Below the pieces are notes generated by a model that was not told where the DNA came from, did not search any database, and was given only the letters and a program-made list of their open reading frames with translations. Below, piece by piece: positions 13,248 to 25,612 of a DNA stretch of 35,055 nt. The first letter of the stretch is position 1. Each line of letters opens with the position of its first letter. The stretch comes from Deltaproteobacteria bacterium (GTDB lineage Bacteria; Desulfobacterota; RBG-13-43-22), in assembly GCA_016219225.1 (NCBI GenBank), contig JACRBX010000347.1, positions 1-35,055 of the forward strand, written 5' to 3'. The translations under genes were made by a program, and so were the position numbers.

Positions 13248-13455
13248 CTGGATTCTCTCCTGCGCGGGAATGACGATTTTTTACGTGACCATCAATGATG
13301 ACGGATTCGTAAAAAGTCGCCGAAACCCGCATTGCGTCATTCCGGCGAAGCCGGAATCCAGATATTCAACCAATTCTGGACCCCGGCGCCTGTCCCGGAC
13401 CTGATCCGGGGTTCGCCGGGGTGACGACCTCGGAAATTTTTTACTTGTTCATCAA
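13248..13455. repeat. MITE-like palindromic repeats: half copy joined to a full copy
   Basis: At 13248-13295 lies a right half-element (CTGGATTC, CGGGAATGACGA, TTTTTTACG, ending CATCAA). It abuts a full copy at about 13293-13455, with left end TGATGACGGATTCGTAAAAA and right end TTTTTTACTTGTTCATCAA. The inner arms are GTCATTCCGGCGAAGCCGGAATCC and a CCCCGG-rich hairpin. The right end overlaps the stop codon of the regulator gene (TGA at 13454-13452). Confidence 0.75.
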
Positions 13456-14762
13456 AGATCGAGCTCTAATTTTTTGATCTTCTCCAATAAGGTGGTTCTC
13501 TTTAAACCTAAGAGCTCGGCGGCTTTGCTTTTAACGCCCTGGGATTTTCGTAAGGCCTGGCTGATCAAGTTCCTTTCTACCTCTTCCACCAAAGTATTCA
13601 GATTAACCCCCTTCTCGGTGAGTATAACCTCACGGGGGGATTCATCCGGTCCCGTTTGGCTTTCGGAAATCTCTTTTCGGGGAACAGTCTGGAATTCTTG
13701 AAACCTTTGAGGGAGATCTTTTGCGGTAATCAGACTGTCATCGTTTAAGATGACCATCCTCTCGATCAGATTCTCCATTTCACGAACATTCCCGGGCCAG
13801 GGGTATTGTAGAAAAAGCGCCATCACCTCCTGATCGATCCGGATAGGCTCTCTTTTTCTTTTTCGTGAAAAATAATTAATAAAATAGTCGGTCAAAACCG
13901 GAATATCTTCCGGCCTTTCCCTCAAGGGAGGAATGCGGAGGGGAATTACGTTTAAGCGATAAAAGAGGTCTTCGCGAAAATTACCGGCTTTGGTTTCCCT
14001 TTCCAGATTTTTATTGGTGGCTGCCAAAATCCGAACATCGACCTTAATGGTTTTGGATCCACCGACCCGTTCAAACCTTCCGATACGGGTATTGATGGCC
14101 CCGGTAAAGGCCCCCCGTTCATGTCCGAAGAGTTCCGATTCCAGAAGATCTTTGGGTATGGCCGCACAATTAAAGGGGACAAAAGGATTCTGACCTCTGA
14201 GACTGTTATAGTGAATGGTCTTGGCGATCAGTTCCTTCCCGGTTCCGCTTTCTCCCTCAATTAATATAGTCGCATCGGTATCGGAAATTTTTTTTATCAG
14301 CCCATAAACCTTCTGCATTTGTGGTGAATTTCCAATCAGGCCCTGATAATCATACCGTTGTTTCAACTGCTTTTTTAGAGAAAAGTTCTCTTTTTTTAGT
14401 TTTGAAAAATCAAGGGCTCTTTGAACGACCAACCAAAGTTCTTCTAAGACAAAAGGCTTGGTAATATAATCGAAGGCCCCTAATTTTATGGCTTCCACTG
14501 CTGTGGCAATGGCCCCGAATCCGGTGATGATAATCGCTGGGATATTGATGTTGAGGGAGGCTATTTTTTTCAAGACCTCCATGCCGCCCATGCCCGGCAG
14601 GACCAAATCCACCAAATAGAGATCTATTCCTTTTTCTTGAATAAGCTCGACGCCTATCTCGCCATCTTCGGCTACCGAGACCTCAAAGCCTTTTAAATGT
14701 AAAAATTCTTCCAAAATACTCCGGACCGCAGGATCATCATCAATCACTAAGATATGGGGCAT
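13452..14762 (-). CDS. NtrC-type sigma-54 response regulator lacking the Walker B segment
   Basis: 436 residues. The receiver (1-115, phospho-Asp52 in LVDLVLP), Walker A GESGTGKE (170-177), GAFTGA loop (217-222), R-finger segment (GNFREDLFYRLNVIP) and Fis-type helix-turn-helix (KSKAAELLGLKRTTLLEKI) are intact. Between residues 228 and 233 the protein jumps from GRFER straight to VGGSKTIKVDVRILAATN. The intact regulator at 8708-10000 has 33 more residues over the same span, including the Walker B ILLDEIG. The distance GAFTGA to ATN is 33 residues here and 66 there, so 99 bases are missing in frame. Without the Walker B Asp-Glu pair ATP hydrolysis, and so sigma-54 activation, should fail. It may still bind DNA or compete. 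An assembly error is possible. A GGAG site precedes the ATG. Confidence 0.9.
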   Translation of the reverse strand: MPHILVIDDDPAVRSILEEFLHLKGFEVSVAEDGEIGVELIQEKGIDLYLVDLVLPGMGGMEVLKKIASLNINIPAIIITGFGAIATAVEAIKLGAFDYITKPFVLEELWLVVQRALDFSKLKKENFSLKKQLKQRYDYQGLIGNSPQMQKVYGLIKKISDTDATILIEGESGTGKELIAKTIHYNSLRGQNPFVPFNCAAIPKDLLESELFGHERGAFTGAINTRIGRFERVGGSKTIKVDVRILAATNKNLERETKAGNFREDLFYRLNVIPLRIPPLRERPEDIPVLTDYFINYFSRKRKREPIRIDQEVMALFLQYPWPGNVREMENLIERMVILNDDSLITAKDLPQRFQEFQTVPRKEISESQTGPDESPREVILTEKGVNLNTLVEEVERNLISQALRKSQGVKSKAAELLGLKRTTLLEKIKKLELDL

Positions 14763-14810: not shown

Positions 14811-14839
14811 TATTTTCGCACAACTATTTATTATGTCAA
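14811..14839 (-). promoter_or_regulatory. Possible sigma-70 promoter for the Walker-B-less regulator
   Basis: On the minus strand a perfect TTGACA (14839-14834) is followed after 17 bases by AAAATA, a poor -10. It lies in the 129-base gap between the second cheD and the regulator, about 50 bases before the ATG. Only the -35 box is convincing. Confidence 0.3.
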
Positions 14840-14891: not shown

Positions 14892-15419
14892 CTATCGGGG
14901 TTCTTTTAAAACATAGGGATACCAATCTTCTTGCCTTAATCGGTCCACCTTAAGGACCATAACCTCATTGGTATCGGATTTAACAGCCAGTTTCCTCCCC
15001 TTGCCCCCCCCCACATCCTCTGAAATAATGGGGATACCTTCCCGGGCCAGAATCGTTTTGGCCATTAATATATTTTGTCCCCCCAGGGTGTTATCCGAAG
15101 AGGACCGGGGATCTGCGCCTCCGAATATCTGGGCCTCCAGAAAGGATTTCTCCGAACCGTCTGCCGTCATCAGCTTGATCAGGGTCAGAACAGCGACATT
15201 ACCATATTGGACTGTGGCCTTTTTCGGTTTGGAAATCCTCGGATAAAGGAAGTGGGACAGGCCGCCATACCGTTTCTGGCGGTCCCAGAGGTAAACCGTG
15301 ACGGCCGACCCCATAACCGAATAAACCAGGGTGGGCTCCCGGCTTAAAAAAATATAACCGGGTTTCAAAAAATATTGAACACGTTCGATTTCCTGGTTTT
15401 TGGGGTCTCCCAAAGACAT
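14892..15419 (-). CDS. CheD-family protein with degenerate active site
   Basis: About 175 residues from the ATG at 15419, 25 bases after the cheX stop; a longer frame upstream would overlap cheX and is not used. The CheD fold is evident: YFLKPGYIF, YGGLSHFLYP, IFGGADPRSS, GGQNILMAK, GIPIISEDVGGGKGRKL. CheD deamidates receptor glutamines with a Cys-His-Thr set. Here the GSC motif is GSA (Ala39, codon 15305-15303), the Thr position is Tyr33, and only His56 remains. It therefore should not deamidate. CheD also binds CheC-type phosphatases, and this gene directly follows a CheX/CheC-like gene, so a regulatory or scaffold role is a reasonable guess. A separate, intact CheD is at 17215-17694. Confidence 0.85.
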   Translation of the reverse strand: MSLGDPKNQEIERVQYFLKPGYIFLSREPTLVYSVMGSAVTVYLWDRQKRYGGLSHFLYPRISKPKKATVQYGNVAVLTLIKLMTADGSEKSFLEAQIFGGADPRSSSDNTLGGQNILMAKTILAREGIPIISEDVGGGKGRKLAVKSDTNEVMVLKVDRLRQEDWYPYVLKEPR

Positions 15420-15444: not shown

Positions 15445-15954
15445 TTATTGATGGGGATCGAATTGAATTTGAAGAGTGATCGGTTGTCCCTCGGCCGAAA
15501 AATACAGGACAAGATCTGAAGGTTTATCCGGGGGGGCTTCGTCTGGAAAAGATATTTTTTGAATGGACGGAACACCTAAGGTGTAGACAGCCGTTTTATC
15601 GAAGACGGAAAATAGATTGCCGCAAATCATATTCGTCAATTCACAACCCATGTCCAACACCTGAGATTCACTCACCTCTTCCTCAAATCCCAGAAAATTC
15701 ATGGCCAGCGTTTCGCCAAGATCATAGGGGAGGATGAGTTGCAACTGTCCGGTCTGGGCCCCGGAAAAACGGATTTCACTTTTTAAAAACCAGGGCCCCT
15801 GGGGTTGCGGAAGGTAACCGGTCTCCTTTTCCGGTTCGGGCAAGACCTCCGGAGACAGCGGGTTCTCCTCTACCGGCTCTAAAAAGGTAAAAAACATGGT
15901 TTCAAAGATATTGAGAACAGCGGAAAGGGCGGCGTTTCGCATGGCGTCAGACAT
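15445..15954 (-). CDS. cheX: CheX/CheC-type CheY-P phosphatase
   Basis: 169 residues. CheC/CheX/FliY-family proteins dephosphorylate CheY-P through a helix with the pattern D/S-x3-E-x2-N followed about 20 residues later by Pro. Here the segment DMGCELTNMICGN supplies the Asp-x3-Glu-x2-Asn and VPSI supplies the Pro. Only one such helix is visible, as in CheX. The insertion of a Pro/Glu-rich loop (about 28-52) is unusual. The ATG overlaps the cheY end by eight bases, a natural pairing of phosphatase with substrate. Confidence 0.78.
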   Translation of the reverse strand: MSDAMRNAALSAVLNIFETMFFTFLEPVEENPLSPEVLPEPEKETGYLPQPQGPWFLKSEIRFSGAQTGQLQLILPYDLGETLAMNFLGFEEEVSESQVLDMGCELTNMICGNLFSVFDKTAVYTLGVPSIQKISFPDEAPPDKPSDLVLYFSAEGQPITLQIQFDPHQ

Positions 15955-16333
15955 AAGGTTTCTCCATGATACGAGTCAAAACATCTCGTAATCTTTCGGG
16001 ATGGAAAGGTTTTTGGATATAATCTTTAACCCCCAGGGCAAATAATTCCTGCAGACGGGTTTCACTGCCCTCGGTCGTAATCAGCACCACGGGAATGCCT
16101 TCATAGTGTTGGTCGCCTTTTAGTTTATGGACCAATTCCAATCCGTTCATCACCGGCATATTCAGGTCCGTCAGGATCAAATCAATCCAATGAGCAGACA
16201 GGACAGTCAAGGCCTCAGCGCCGTTACCGGCTTCCAGACATTCCCCCAAGTCAAAACCTGAAAGCGTCAGGGCCTTTAAAATGACCTTCCGCATCGTCTG
16301 GGAATCATCAACAATCAAAACATTATATGCCAT
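15947..16333 (-). CDS. cheY: Single-domain response regulator, CheY-like
   Basis: 128 residues, a stand-alone receiver domain. Acidic pocket Asp9-Asp10 (LIVDDSQTMRK), phosphorylation site Asp56 (ILTDLNMP), Thr86-Thr87 switch region (LITTEGSE) and Lys108 (YIQKPF) are all present. Such proteins carry the signal from CheA to the motor switch. A GAGGGA site precedes the ATG; the gene lies 36 bases after the HDOD gene and is coupled to cheX. Confidence 0.92.
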   Translation of the reverse strand: MAYNVLIVDDSQTMRKVILKALTLSGFDLGECLEAGNGAEALTVLSAHWIDLILTDLNMPVMNGLELVHKLKGDQHYEGIPVVLITTEGSETRLQELFALGVKDYIQKPFHPERLRDVLTRIMEKPYV

Positions 16334-16369: not shown

Positions 16370-17218
16370 TTATTGCACCTGGATCATGGCTTCCACTTTT
16401 TGGATCTGATCCCCCAGTTGGGCCATAAATCGTTCAATGTCTTTTTCATCTAATCCAAAATGATGCATGACTTGATTAAAACCGGTATAGGATAATCCAT
16501 CGACCCCTCCACCGATACCGGTCAGCATGGCGATCAGGTCACACAAATAAATCTGGTAAACCAGTTCCTGTTCGGAATGGGCCGATAAGGGAGTATGATG
16601 GTACCGGATGGCCTGGATGATTCCCTGGGGAAAGTTCCATTCTTCGGTAATCAAAGCGCTCAGCTCGGCATGGTCGATGCCCAAAACATCTTTTTCTGCG
16701 GTCAGGAAGGAAATCCCTTTGGCTCGAACCTGTTCCTTTATGGCTTCAAATTGCTCTTCGACATAAGAATGCAGTAATACCTTGCCGATATCATGGATCA
16801 GGGCGGCCGTAAACAATAAGGGGCTCTGGTCTTTCTTTAATCGTTTAGAGATGATTTGAGATAAAAGGGCCGTACTGACCGAATGTTTCCATAATGCACC
16901 AGCCTCTAAATCATAGCCGGAAACGGCCTTCCCCAGGGTCGAACCGGACACCGTGGCCATGATAATCTCAAACAACTGGTTGAACCCCAAAAACATCAAT
17001 GCCTCCTGAAGGGATCCTACCGGATAGCGCAAACCGAACTGGGCCGAATTGCAGATCTTCAATACATTGGCCGTTATGGCCTGATCGTATTGAATCGTTT
17101 CAACGACCTCTTGAATGGAAGACTTAGGATTGTTTATCAAATCCAAAGCCTTATTAACAACCGCCGGAAAAGGGGGCAGTTGGCGGGTGGATTTGATAAT
17201 GGCCTCGACGAAACTCAT
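16370..17218 (-). CDS. HDOD-domain protein
   Basis: 282 residues made largely of one HDOD domain (LPPFPAVVNKALDLINNPKSS, VLKICNSAQFG, HSVSTALLSQII, LLFTAALIHDIGKVLLHSY, IDHAELSALI, IRYHH). HDOD is a non-catalytic relative of HD phosphohydrolases; some family members act in signalling with c-di-GMP or response regulators. HD residues are partly retained (HDIGK, DHAE), so residual metal binding cannot be ruled out. It is coupled to cheD (ATGA, four bases) and precedes cheY, so it is part of the chemotaxis operon. Its job there is unknown. Confidence 0.88.
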   Translation of the reverse strand: MSFVEAIIKSTRQLPPFPAVVNKALDLINNPKSSIQEVVETIQYDQAITANVLKICNSAQFGLRYPVGSLQEALMFLGFNQLFEIIMATVSGSTLGKAVSGYDLEAGALWKHSVSTALLSQIISKRLKKDQSPLLFTAALIHDIGKVLLHSYVEEQFEAIKEQVRAKGISFLTAEKDVLGIDHAELSALITEEWNFPQGIIQAIRYHHTPLSAHSEQELVYQIYLCDLIAMLTGIGGGVDGLSYTGFNQVMHHFGLDEKDIERFMAQLGDQIQKVEAMIQVQ

Positions 17219-17694
17219 AGTTCTTTTTCTCCCTCCCCGGAATAGCGAAGAAAGACTTTTCCGGTAGCCAGATCCATCCGTACGGTCCGGGACACCTGTC
17301 CCCCCACATCTTCGGCCTTGATCAGGACATTATTTTTCCAAAGGATCTTTCGCAGGGCCATATAGTTTCTTTTTCCGATATTAAAAAATCCGGAATCATC
17401 CAGGATTTGAGACCCGCCGGCCACCTTGACGATAATCCGGCTTTTAGATGCGCCCACTCGATAGGCCTCTTTAAAAAGCATTGGTATTCCGGTATCGGCA
17501 AACATAAAAGGATTCTTTTGAGCCTTATGGGGATCGATCTGTGATTCCGGCAGCATGTAGTGGAGAAGCCCCCCGACCCCCGCCACCGGATCGTAAATGG
17601 CAACCCCGATGCAAGATCCCAGGGAATAGGTAATTAATCCGGATTGCTGGTCCCGGCTGACCCCCATATCGGCGATTCCAATGATTATTTTCAT
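17215..17694 (-). CDS. cheD: Chemoreceptor glutamine deamidase CheD
   Basis: 159 residues, normal for CheD. The enzyme converts specific receptor glutamines to glutamate in adaptation. The catalytic set is intact: Thr22, Cys28 (YSLGSCIGVAIYD) and His45 (GGLLHYMLP), at nearly the same numbers as in the Thermotoga enzyme. The remaining family blocks VKVAGGSQIL, IGKRNYMALRKIL and EDVGGQVSRTV are present. The ATG overlaps the cheR stop by four bases. Confidence 0.95.
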   Translation of the reverse strand: MKIIIGIADMGVSRDQQSGLITYSLGSCIGVAIYDPVAGVGGLLHYMLPESQIDPHKAQKNPFMFADTGIPMLFKEAYRVGASKSRIIVKVAGGSQILDDSGFFNIGKRNYMALRKILWKNNVLIKAEDVGGQVSRTVRMDLATGKVFLRYSGEGEKEL

Positions 17695-18542
17695 GTTTTT
17701 TTATAAATAGCCGGTTTCACATAGTGGAAAGGATGTTCGATTCCGGTCAGACTTTCCGAGTGTCCGATGAAAAGGACCCCCCCTTTTTCCAGGTTTTCAT
17801 AAAAACGGTTTACCAACTGGGTCCTGGTTTCTTTGTCGAAATAAATCATCACATTTCGACAAAAAATACAATCAAAGGATTCATTGAATGAAAAGGATTC
17901 CATCAGGTTCAGCCGCTGGAATTGGACCGTGGATTTTATAATAGGTTTTACTTTTACGTGATTCCGCCACTGGTTTTCCCCGCGGAGAAAATATTTTTTC
18001 AATAAATCCATGGAGAGGGACTGCATTTTGTTTTTAAGATAAATTCCGGATTGGGCCACAGCTACCACCTTGGTAGAGATATCGGTGGCCAGGATCTTCA
18101 AATCCCAACCCGATCCGGGTGGCAATGATTCTAACAAAGTTATGGCAATGGTATAAGGCTCTTCGCCGGTAGAACATCCGGCGCTCCAGATCCGCAACTT
18201 CTTTGGGTTGTTTCCCTTTCCCCCCTTTAAAGAAGGAATGATTTCATTTTTAAGATAATCGAAGTGCTGGTTTTCTCTGAAAAAATGAGTGAAATTGGTG
18301 GAGATGGAATCCAGCAACTGGATCATTTCCTCCCCCGATGGGTCGTTGATGACAAAGTCATAATATTCGCGAAAGGATTGGAAATTGCCGTTTCGTATCC
18401 TTTTTCCCAAACGGGCCTTGACCAGCTCTTTTTTCCCGTCATGAAGATTAATTCCGGATTGGTCGTAAACCAGACGGCTGATCTTGACAAAATCGGCCTC
18501 GGTAAATTCAAGGGGCTGATACATGGAATAATTCAAGGACAT
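17691..18542 (-). CDS. cheR: Chemotaxis methyltransferase CheR
   Basis: 283 residues. CheR uses S-adenosylmethionine to methylate receptor glutamates. The N-terminal helical domain (ISRLVYDQSGINLHDGKKELVKARLGKR) and the methyltransferase core (IWSAGCSTGEEPYTIAI, LKILATDIS, FDCIFCRNVMIYFD, GGVLFIGHSESL) are complete. AAGGATCT precedes the ATG, nine bases after the MCP stop, so enzyme and substrate are co-expressed. Confidence 0.97.
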   Translation of the reverse strand: MSLNYSMYQPLEFTEADFVKISRLVYDQSGINLHDGKKELVKARLGKRIRNGNFQSFREYYDFVINDPSGEEMIQLLDSISTNFTHFFRENQHFDYLKNEIIPSLKGGKGNNPKKLRIWSAGCSTGEEPYTIAITLLESLPPGSGWDLKILATDISTKVVAVAQSGIYLKNKMQSLSMDLLKKYFLRGENQWRNHVKVKPIIKSTVQFQRLNLMESFSFNESFDCIFCRNVMIYFDKETRTQLVNRFYENLEKGGVLFIGHSESLTGIEHPFHYVKPAIYKKT

Positions 18543-18551
18543 AGGAGATCC

Positions 18552-20189
18552 TTAAAACTCCTGAAAATCTTCTTCGGTTAAGGGGATAATTTTCTCAGGG
18601 GATATTTCTTGCCCTTTTAAAGGGGTCTGATGTCCCGAGAGCCTTTTGGCAGGGATGGGGGATGGGATTCTCCTGGCCCCGGGGAGATGCCTTTCCTTCC
18701 CCTTGTGACCGTTATGGCTGATCTTAAACTCGGACATGATAGCCGCCAATTCCTCAGCACTGGCCGCATTGGTTTGGGTCCCGGAATTCATATCCGCCAC
18801 GGCTTTGTTGATCTGCTCAATCCCTTGTGACTGCTCTTTGGAGGCCGAAGCGATTTCACCCACTAAATCAACGGCCTTGGACGTGTTAGCGGCCACCTGT
18901 TTGAAATCCTGATCGGTCGAAGTCACCAACACAGCACCGCTTTTTATTTTCTTGACAATATCCTCGATCAGGTTGGAGGTGTTTTTAGCCGCCTCGGCGG
19001 CCCGCATAGCCAGGTTTCGGACCTCATCGGCCACCACGGCAAATCCTGCACCGGCCTCACCGGCCCGGGCCGCCTCGACTGCGGCATTCAAGGCCAGCAG
19101 ATTGGTCTGGAAAGCAATCTCATCAATGGTCTTGATGATCTTCTGGGAATGCTCACTGGCGACCACGATTTCCTTTATCGATCCACTGAGTTCATCCATG
19201 GAGATTTGGGTCTTGGCCATTTTTTCTTTGGCTAAGGACATGAGGCGGTCGGCCTCAGCGGCATTCCCGGCATTTTGTTTCGTCATGGAAGACAACTCCT
19301 CCAGAGAAGAGGAGGTTTCCTCAATGGAGGCGGCCTGTTGAGAAGCCGCACTGGAAAGGGTCTGGGACATGGCCGTAGACTGGCTGACCATTTCTCCCAG
19401 TTTATGCCGCATGGCATTGACCGATTGGGCCAAGGCACCGATTTCATCCTTGGAAATCAGGGTTATTTCCTGGGTCAGATCGCCATCAGCGACTTTTTTA
19501 ATGACTTCCATGGCCTGTTTGATCGGATTGGTTATAATTTTAGCCATATAAATTCCGATCACCAGGGAAAGGAGAATAGCCGCCATCATCACAAAAATCA
19601 GGATGGTTTTGACTAATTGGGAACTGGTAACCGTTGCGCCATACTGGTCCTTGCTTAATCGATTTTCCAATTCCATCAAATTTTTTACATGCTTATTTAA
19701 AATTTGAAATTTTTCATCGACCGAACCCATGAAGACCGTAGCGGTATTTAAATCGGCCATGGACATATCAATGGCATTTAAAGCCACTTTCTTATATTCC
19801 ATGAAGCTCGGTGCGATGGCCTGGATGAGTTTTTGTTCTTCCGGGGAAAACCCTTTGCCACCGACCATTTTTTGGAACGATTCCCATTCCTGATTAATCA
19901 CTTTAATTTCTTCGGTTCTGAGCTGATCAATCTTTTTTTCATCATAATTGGCATGGGCCCAGTTAATGATTTTATAAATATTAAAATTGATTTCAGTCAA
20001 GGCCGTCAATATCCTTGAAGTCCATTGATAGCTCTGGAATCGTTGATTAAAAAAGGAATCCATTGCCTCCTGCTGGATCTGAATCCCGCGATAGGAGACC
20101 GCGCCTAAAATAATCAATAACAGTAACACCAGGACCGGCCCGGCCAGGGATTTATTGATCATTCTTAAATTGCCCAGGATCTTTTTCAT
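18552..20189 (-). CDS. Methyl-accepting chemotaxis protein (four-helix-bundle type)
   Basis: About 545 residues from the ATG at 20189, chosen because AAGAGGAG lies just before it; an upstream in-frame start lacks this. Transmembrane segment 1 spans about 17-36 and segment 2 about 186-206. The periplasmic part between them is all-helical, of the 4HB type. HAMP follows (about 207-260, [19 protein letters not shown]), then the signalling hairpin with the conserved tip [25 protein letters not shown]. The end is a flexible tail finishing EEDFQEF, resembling the C-terminal tethers that dock CheR or CheB. It is the only complete receptor in the window and sits between a secreted Cache protein and cheR. 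Confidence 0.94.
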
Positions 20190-20239
20190 GGTTGCTCCTC
20201 TTACCGTCAAGGATTGGATTGATAATACTTCGGCTGGTA

Positions 20240-21022: not shown

Positions 21023-21535
21023 TCAGGCCGCTTTTTCCATCTCGATCATTTCTTCATCGCCGAAGACTTTGTCGATGTCCAGAAGGATCTTGACCGCTCC
21101 CCCGGTTTTGGCCATACCAAGAATATAACCCGTATCCATTTGCGTCCCGAAAGCCGGCGTATCTTCTATTTCCCCGTTTTTGATGTTCAAGACCTCAGAA
21201 ACCGAATCGACCACCACCCCCATCAAAACATGTCCGGCACCGTCCTTAATTTCGACGACGATGATGCAGGTCCGTTCCGTATAATCCATCTCTTCCATAT
21301 CGAACTTCAGTCTGAGATCGGCCACGGGGATTACTTTCCCCCGAAGGTTTATCACCCCTTTAACATAAGACGGTGTTTTGGGGACCGGAGTTATAGGCAT
21401 CATTCCGATGATCTCCTTTACCTTCAGGATAACAATCCCATATTCCTCACCGGCCAGAGAAAAGGTCAGGTATTTCCCTTCGCGATCCAAGGAAGTTTTT
21501 TGACTCTTGTCCACTGATTCTACGATCTCTGCCAT
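21023..21535 (-). CDS. cheW: Chemotaxis coupling protein CheW
   Basis: About 170 residues from the ATG at 21535, chosen because GGAGGT lies seven bases before it. CheW links receptors to CheA. The fold is clear: YLTFSLAGEEYGIVILKVKEIIG, the VPKTPSYVKGVINLRGKVIPVADLR signature, CIIVVEI, GVVVDSVSEVL and the C-terminal KILLDIDKVF. It opens the che operon under a sigma-28 promoter candidate. Confidence 0.97.
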   Translation of the reverse strand: MAEIVESVDKSQKTSLDREGKYLTFSLAGEEYGIVILKVKEIIGMMPITPVPKTPSYVKGVINLRGKVIPVADLRLKFDMEEMDYTERTCIIVVEIKDGAGHVLMGVVVDSVSEVLNIKNGEIEDTPAFGTQMDTGYILGMAKTGGAVKILLDIDKVFGDEEMIEMEKAA

Positions 21536-21605
21536 TGTTGATACCTCCATTTGATTATACAGATGGTCTTTCCCCCTCGAGGTGAGGAGTTGCTAATTAT
21601 CTCTA

Positions 21606-21925: not shown

Positions 21926-25212
<3,287 letters not shown>

Positions 25213-25612
25213 TCGGTAATCCTTTCCTTTATTCTTCCAAAGGATTGTCAAAAAAATTTATCCTGAGAACATGGAGTCAGCATTTCAAATAGTTTTGGTT
25301 TGCTTTGTTGCAATAAATATACCGATAGCTATTTGGCTTGAAATTCTGCGGAATTGACGAAAAACGCAGTGTGACCGCACCAAATAACAAATTGATAAGT
25401 CAATATTTCGACGAAATCTGAGGACTCTTGACACTACCCCGAAGGATGCTGATAGATAACGAAGTAGGCGACAAAAATCAGCTTCCAGGGGTCGGGGGGC
25501 TGAGGTCTGGAAAAGGAGCACCAGGAACCACGAAAATATTTTAAAAGCGATGGGCAATGTTCAGGGTTCAAGACTTTTCTTGAATCTTGTATCTTGCAAC
25601 TTGAAACTTTTT
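25213..25612. other. Gene-free 400-base stretch between motB and cheA
   Basis: No convincing gene is visible; a 90-codon frame on the minus strand is Arg/Ser/Phe rich with no recognisable domain or ribosome site. Small inverted repeats occur (CTGCG/CGCAG near 25350, ATTGA/TCAAT near 25393). No sigma-54 or sigma-28 box for cheA was found, so cheA may be read through from motB or use a promoter not recognised here. Confidence 0.5.
25579..25606. repeat. Heptamer-periodic array (four units)
   Basis: Plus strand: CTTGAAT, CTTGTAT, CTTGCAA, CTTGAAA, an exact 7-base period with conserved CTTG and variable last three bases. It starts seven bases beyond the motB stop. The unit resembles that of the array at 1678-1705. 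Confidence 0.7.

Follow-up and report, generated by a model that had tools for sequence, protein, structure and literature searches.

The window analysed here, a stretch of 35,055 nucleotides from a Deltaproteobacteria bacterium, encodes a CheD-fold protein (pCheD) that carries alanine in place of the catalytic cysteine. Judged from its sequence, pCheD is almost certainly dead as a Cys deamidase. That it is nevertheless a functional protein is well supported, and the CheD clade to which it belongs has repeatedly lost the nucleophile. The reading that we favour, with a probability of about 0.5, is that pCheD is a functional pseudo-deamidase, which would dock on the receptor without deamidating it and modulate receptor-CheA activity, with deamidation left to the intact CheD.

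A Cys-less CheD at the end of a chemotaxis operon

The following features of the window were used in the analysis, and the basis of each assignment is given in brackets.

14892..15419, minus strand: pCheD, Cys-less CheD-fold protein, 175 aa (ORF and translation, Pfam CheD, AlphaFold2 model)
14913..14936, minus strand: clade signature R162-x-x-D165-W166-Y-P-Y169 in the C-terminal extension of pCheD (clade column conservation)
15252..15254, minus strand: codon 56, CAC (His), catalytic His kept (alignment, codon comparison)
15303..15305, minus strand: codon 39, GCC (Ala), at the catalytic Cys position (alignment, codon comparison)
15445..15954, minus strand: CheX phosphatase with intact E105-x2-N108 (Pfam CheX 6e-9, alignment, structure match)
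15947..16333, minus strand: CheY-like receiver (Pfam)
16370..17218, minus strand: HDOD domain protein (Pfam)
17215..17694, minus strand: second CheD (cheD2), canonical, Cys28 and His45 intact (Pfam CheD 4e-31, alignment)
17691..18542, minus strand: CheR methyltransferase (Pfam)
18552..20210, minus strand: chemoreceptor with 4HB, HAMP and MCP signalling domain, C-terminus ...EEDFQEF (Pfam, C-terminus)
21023..21550, minus strand: CheW (Pfam)
21926..22972, minus strand: CheB (Pfam)
22975..25251, minus strand: CheA (Pfam)

The pCheD gene (start ATG at 15419, stop at 14892, frame confirmed) is the last in a minus-strand run of chemotaxis genes in the order cheA, cheB, cheW, chemoreceptor, cheR, cheD2, HDOD gene, cheY, cheX and pCheD gene, which together make up a complete chemotaxis operon. 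From cheR through cheX, neighbouring genes overlap or almost touch. The preliminary description had placed the pCheD gene 25 bases behind cheX and a second, intact CheD in the same operon, and both statements agreed with our gene map: the ATG lies 25 bases past the cheX stop at 15445, and cheD2 retains its Cys and His. No obvious ribosome-binding site was seen before the pCheD gene in this 25-base gap. A sigma-70-like site at 14812-14839, of a kind for which chance matches are expected in a region of this size, lies between the pCheD gene and the next gene and suggests that the operon ends at the pCheD gene.

Two further observations were made on the gene neighbourhood. In the NtrC-type response regulator downstream (13452-14762, minus strand), about 34 residues that are present in the L064 counterpart from the same genus are missing, the Walker B segment (GTVLLDEIGE) among them; the deletion sits between two FER repeats, so either it is genuine or the assembly has collapsed there. 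In L016, L023 and L028, CheD and HDOD are joined in one reading frame, about 450-500 codons long, which echoes the separate cheD2-HDOD pair of the window.

The pCheD protein matched Pfam CheD (PF03975) with an E value of 1e-19 and 71.2 bits, against a curated cut-off of 25. Its AlphaFold2 model, built from 53 homologues, showed a mean pLDDT of 90.3 and superposed on Thermotoga maritima CheD (2f9z chain C) with TM-scores of 0.76/0.86 at 2.0 Å. Because of this model confidence and this structural match, the CheD fold is retained in pCheD as modelled. Thus, pCheD resembles the known CheD deamidases (T. maritima and B. subtilis CheD) in fold, Pfam membership, catalytic His and the cheR/cheB/cheA setting, and differs from them by Ala for Cys, by its R-x2-D-W-Y-P-Y extension and by the lack of the Met-Phe pair that contacts CheC.

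Ala39 of pCheD aligns with Cys27 of T. maritima CheD, and His56 aligns with His44. The substitution of the Cys and the retention of the His and the fold, as first described, were confirmed by alignment, codon and model. Codon 39, GCC, is two substitutions away from either Cys codon and is also GCC in the same-genus relative L064 (71% identity), so a single-gene sequencing error was ruled out. The second proposed sign of inactivity, Tyr33 in place of the Thr, is uninformative: the intact-Cys relatives G003, G004 and G012 also carry Tyr at this position. Tyr33 faces Thr21 of T. maritima CheD in the gapless register, where the clade consensus is Ser. The conserved Thr of the subfamily lies one residue further on, where the window has Ser34. 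The register decides whether Tyr33 or Ser34 is the Thr21 equivalent, and the intact-Cys relatives vary likewise.

Repeated loss of the nucleophile in a CheD clade

Relatives of pCheD were gathered by a profile search of 395 phylum genomes and a scan of genome contigs. In the phylum search, clade CheDs were set apart from other CheDs by score (at least 182 bits versus at most 155). The clade boundary was defined by this score gap together with patterns requiring conserved stretches, and sampling may be biased towards members close to the window protein. The homologues came largely from metagenome-assembled genomes. By record titles, they were mostly Desulfobacterota, with some Hydrogenedentota, Fibrobacterota, Nitrospirota, Melainabacteria, Bacillota and others. 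In another genome of the same genus (G002, 96% complete), neither a clade CheD nor CheX was seen.

The clade is marked by a C-terminal extension, R-x2-D-W-[YFH]-P-Y, beyond the CheD domain, which the tails of the other CheDs from these loci lack. Within the clade, every member has R162 and D165, and W166 and Y169 are conserved at 94% and 91%. Conservation of the catalytic Cys is only 44%. Intact-Cys clade relatives in the operon slot of the window gene are 55-56% identical to pCheD. The members that keep Cys and His, including Desulfatibacillum alkenivorans L091, G003 and G012, share the C-terminal signature with pCheD, and G003 and G012 also have the CheY-CheX-CheD slot of the window.

Among 100 distinct clade sequences, the Cys was lacking in 54 and the Cys-His pair in 57; the Cys was kept in 46, and both residues were kept in 43. 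The Cys was replaced by Ser (35), Gly (14), Ala (4) or Asn (1), and the window adds a further Ala. In some members, the His was replaced (by Y, S, C, R, Q or N), either alongside the Cys or instead of it. By comparison, of 95 CheDs outside the clade, taken from these loci and genomes, 92 had both residues and three missed the pair (Fisher p 2e-16, a descriptive value that ignores relatedness).

The history of the Cys state was analyzed on trees inferred after removal of the two catalytic columns. Parsimony gave 13 changes on a quick tree and 16 on a careful tree, with a bootstrap range of 14-16, and at least four changes were forced by well-supported branches. Holding all Cys-less sequences together was rejected (AU p = 0.0007), and thus a single origin of the Cys-less state was ruled out. 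Because the outgroup and the deepest branches carry Cys, loss is the likely direction, although the parsimony counts from these sequences cannot separate loss from regain. Orthologues with an intact Cys at this position had been named in the preliminary description as evidence against its proposal. Such orthologues do exist in the same family and slot (G003, G004), and they show recurrent loss within one clade.

Several loci hold other arrangements of intact and altered CheDs. Tandem CheD genes, with the intact CheD directly upstream of the dead one, were found in G046 and G081; in L154:7845-8849 and L155:4053-5085, the upstream gene is intact and the downstream clade member has Ala or Ser. 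The reverse of the window was found in Desulfobacterales HSG16 (L069:2-463), where the canonical-type CheD has Ser and the neighbouring clade CheD is intact. Outside the clade, CheDs of L242:578-1069 and L252:512-967 have Gly at the catalytic Cys, which shows that loss occurs elsewhere but is rare. No previously described inactive CheD was found in the open-access papers searched.

The Cys-less copies are under purifying selection, as judged by dN/dS estimated with the Nei-Gojobori method. The dN/dS was 0.20 between the window gene and that of the same-genus L064 (dS about 1, near saturation), and 0.05 between L065 and L066. Inside the Gly-Ser group it was 0.055-0.10, and most values for Ser copies lay at 0.04-0.2. 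Over the measurable pairs of Cys-less copies, most fell at roughly 0.04-0.16. The close pair L094 and L076 gave 0.56, from few changes. Conservation outside the catalytic pair was 0.62 in the Cys-less set and 0.57 in the intact set, which spans more phyla.

These values bear on the possibility that a second CheD makes the deamidase activity redundant and that the Cys-less copies are heading for loss. An intact CheD with Cys and His was indeed present in every sampled genome holding a Cys-less copy, and one intact-Cys clade CheD in a same-family genome (G004:C330:10993-11490) has an in-frame TAG near residue 119. However, the dN/dS in Cys-less lineages is low, their frames are full-length, the Cys-less groups are old enough to cover several genera, and the other conserved positions are unaffected. 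Pseudogene decay was rejected on dN/dS, and redundancy with eventual loss is very improbable.

We also considered whether the pocket has been turned to a different reaction or ligand, in the Ser lineages at any rate. The His is kept in 81% of Cys-less members, Ser is the commonest replacement, and a Ser in place of the nucleophile might in principle remain active. However, the window has Ala, and because Ala, Gly and Asn occur, sometimes without the His, no new chemistry can be common to the clade; we give this reading very little credence. With slightly better than even odds, the whole clade is a CheD subfamily with a conserved non-catalytic function, in which the R-x2-D-W-[YFH]-P-Y block would be an interaction element and the deamidase site a remnant of the ancestor that could be dispensed with and was lost independently on many occasions. 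The enzyme role would be dispensable in the clade because another CheD supplies deamidation.

Relationship to the neighbouring CheX

By sequence and fold, the neighbour of pCheD is a CheX-type and not a CheC-type phosphatase. Its E105-x2-N108 site is intact, with E and N invariant across the CheX alignment, and its model matched CheX structures ahead of CheC. No CheC was found in the window genome (G000). The Met-Phe pair of CheD (M101-F102 in B. subtilis) marks CheC-containing species (PMC3513319), and it is absent from window pCheD, which has GADP at that site.

A dead CheD might still bind the neighbouring CheX and tune its activity as CheY-P phosphatase, like CheD with CheC. The two genes are 25 bases apart, and CheX lies directly upstream of a clade CheD in about 14 distinct loci. 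However, this survey of CheX neighbours found both states, with the Cys-His pair lost in eight of these loci and intact in six, so Cys-less CheDs do occur beside CheX, as do live ones. Other clade loci have the arrangement CheX-CheB-CheD or carry the CheD gene on its own, without chemotaxis genes, as in Desulfospira joergensenii and Desulfamplus magnetovallimortis, where it lies beside transporter genes. In two Desulfobacteraceae loci (L070:7971-8483 and L119:7965-8477), a Ser-type CheD stands alone by ABC-transporter-like genes, far from chemotaxis genes.

On the tree, the dead state showed no association with CheX in the locus, a comparison of little power with only three independent pairs on supported branches. 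It also showed no association with the exact DWxPY motif, where three independent supported pairs are too few to exclude one. In the phylum sample, CheX was present in 26/31 genomes that encode a clade CheD, compared to 213/395 overall, and the 26 include every one of the 14 genomes in which the copy is Cys-less. This difference is confounded by whether a genome has a chemotaxis system at all. No CheX was detected in the other five genomes that encode a clade CheD. The CheX of the window already has a complete E-x2-N site, and the CheC-contact Met-Phe of its CheD neighbour is missing. In addition, T. maritima CheX without CheD reportedly reaches the activity for which CheC needs CheD (Park et al. 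2004).

A role of pCheD as a CheX regulator is thus unlikely. Contact with CheX is possible, but it does not explain the dead site. The earlier proposal of a dead CheD kept for its contacts with the phosphatase stood in part: the protein is dead, it is under purifying selection, and an intact CheD is present in the operon. Its pairing with CheX as the cause was not sustained, since CheX adjoins the gene in a minority of loci, live and dead alike, and many dead copies stand alone or lack a CheX nearby.

A proposed receptor-docking role

In B. subtilis, the CheD-F102E protein keeps deamidase activity, shows the chemotaxis defect of the null mutant and binds CheC and the receptor more weakly; because of this phenotype, binding and not deamidation is the main CheD role there (PMC3513319). 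By analogy, pCheD would dock, like CheD, on the adaptation helices of the receptor, without deamidating them. It would modulate receptor-CheA activity stoichiometrically and would perhaps shield receptor glutamines, and the intact CheD of the operon would carry out deamidation. We infer the receptor as the target of pCheD. The clade-specific tail would give a clade-defining contact, with the receptor, CheB, CheR or CheX as candidate partners.

The proposed principle, binding over deamidation, is shared with the CheC/CheD/CheY-P adaptation system of B. subtilis (PMC3513319). However, wild-type CheD is still enzymatic there, whereas here the nucleophile was repeatedly removed. The analogy is qualified in that the B. 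subtilis case rests on CheC, which was not found in the window genome, and in that pCheD lacks the Met-Phe contact pair. A receptor role shared by all clade copies is not assured, since many Ser-type copies lie outside chemotaxis clusters.

The C-terminal block could also serve as a tether, if DW[YFH]PY mimics the C-terminal pentapeptide of receptors and brings CheR or CheB to the receptors via receptor-bound CheD. It fits the form x-[HFYW]-x2-[HFYW] near the C-terminus (NWETF in E. coli), a similar [DE]F[KQ]EF forms the C-terminus of most receptors in the window genome, and cheB adjoins the clade CheD in many loci. The published consensus, however, is acidic and has W at position 2 and F at position 5 (PMC7390727), whereas the clade motif has Pro-Tyr for acidic-Phe and is not on a receptor. 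The invariant Arg lies outside the pentapeptide, and the Tyr is missing in some clade members. Because the extension follows a few residues past the last strand of the AlphaFold2 model with fair confidence (block 161-170, mean pLDDT 83), it is probably packed and not a free tail. Thus, the aromatic spacing fits a tether, the acidity and the flexible linker do not, and we regard this function as quite improbable. Most of the 13 chemoreceptors in G000 (L210-L220 and window 18552-20210) have the pentapeptide-like tail PxQ(I/V)IP(L/M)...(D/E)F(K/Q)(E/D)F.

CheD was earlier viewed as an enzyme; in B. subtilis it was also seen to act by binding, and deamidation appeared to matter little there. Repeated loss of the nucleophile with retention of the protein would be evolutionary evidence for this binding role. 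Many genes of the clade are wrongly annotated as 'chemoreceptor glutamine deamidase'. The clade gives naturally separate catalytic and non-catalytic CheDs within one cell and points to a specific candidate contact, the C-terminal R-x2-D-W element. If the proposed role is true, these bacteria would provide a natural experiment that separates the binding role of CheD from its enzyme role.
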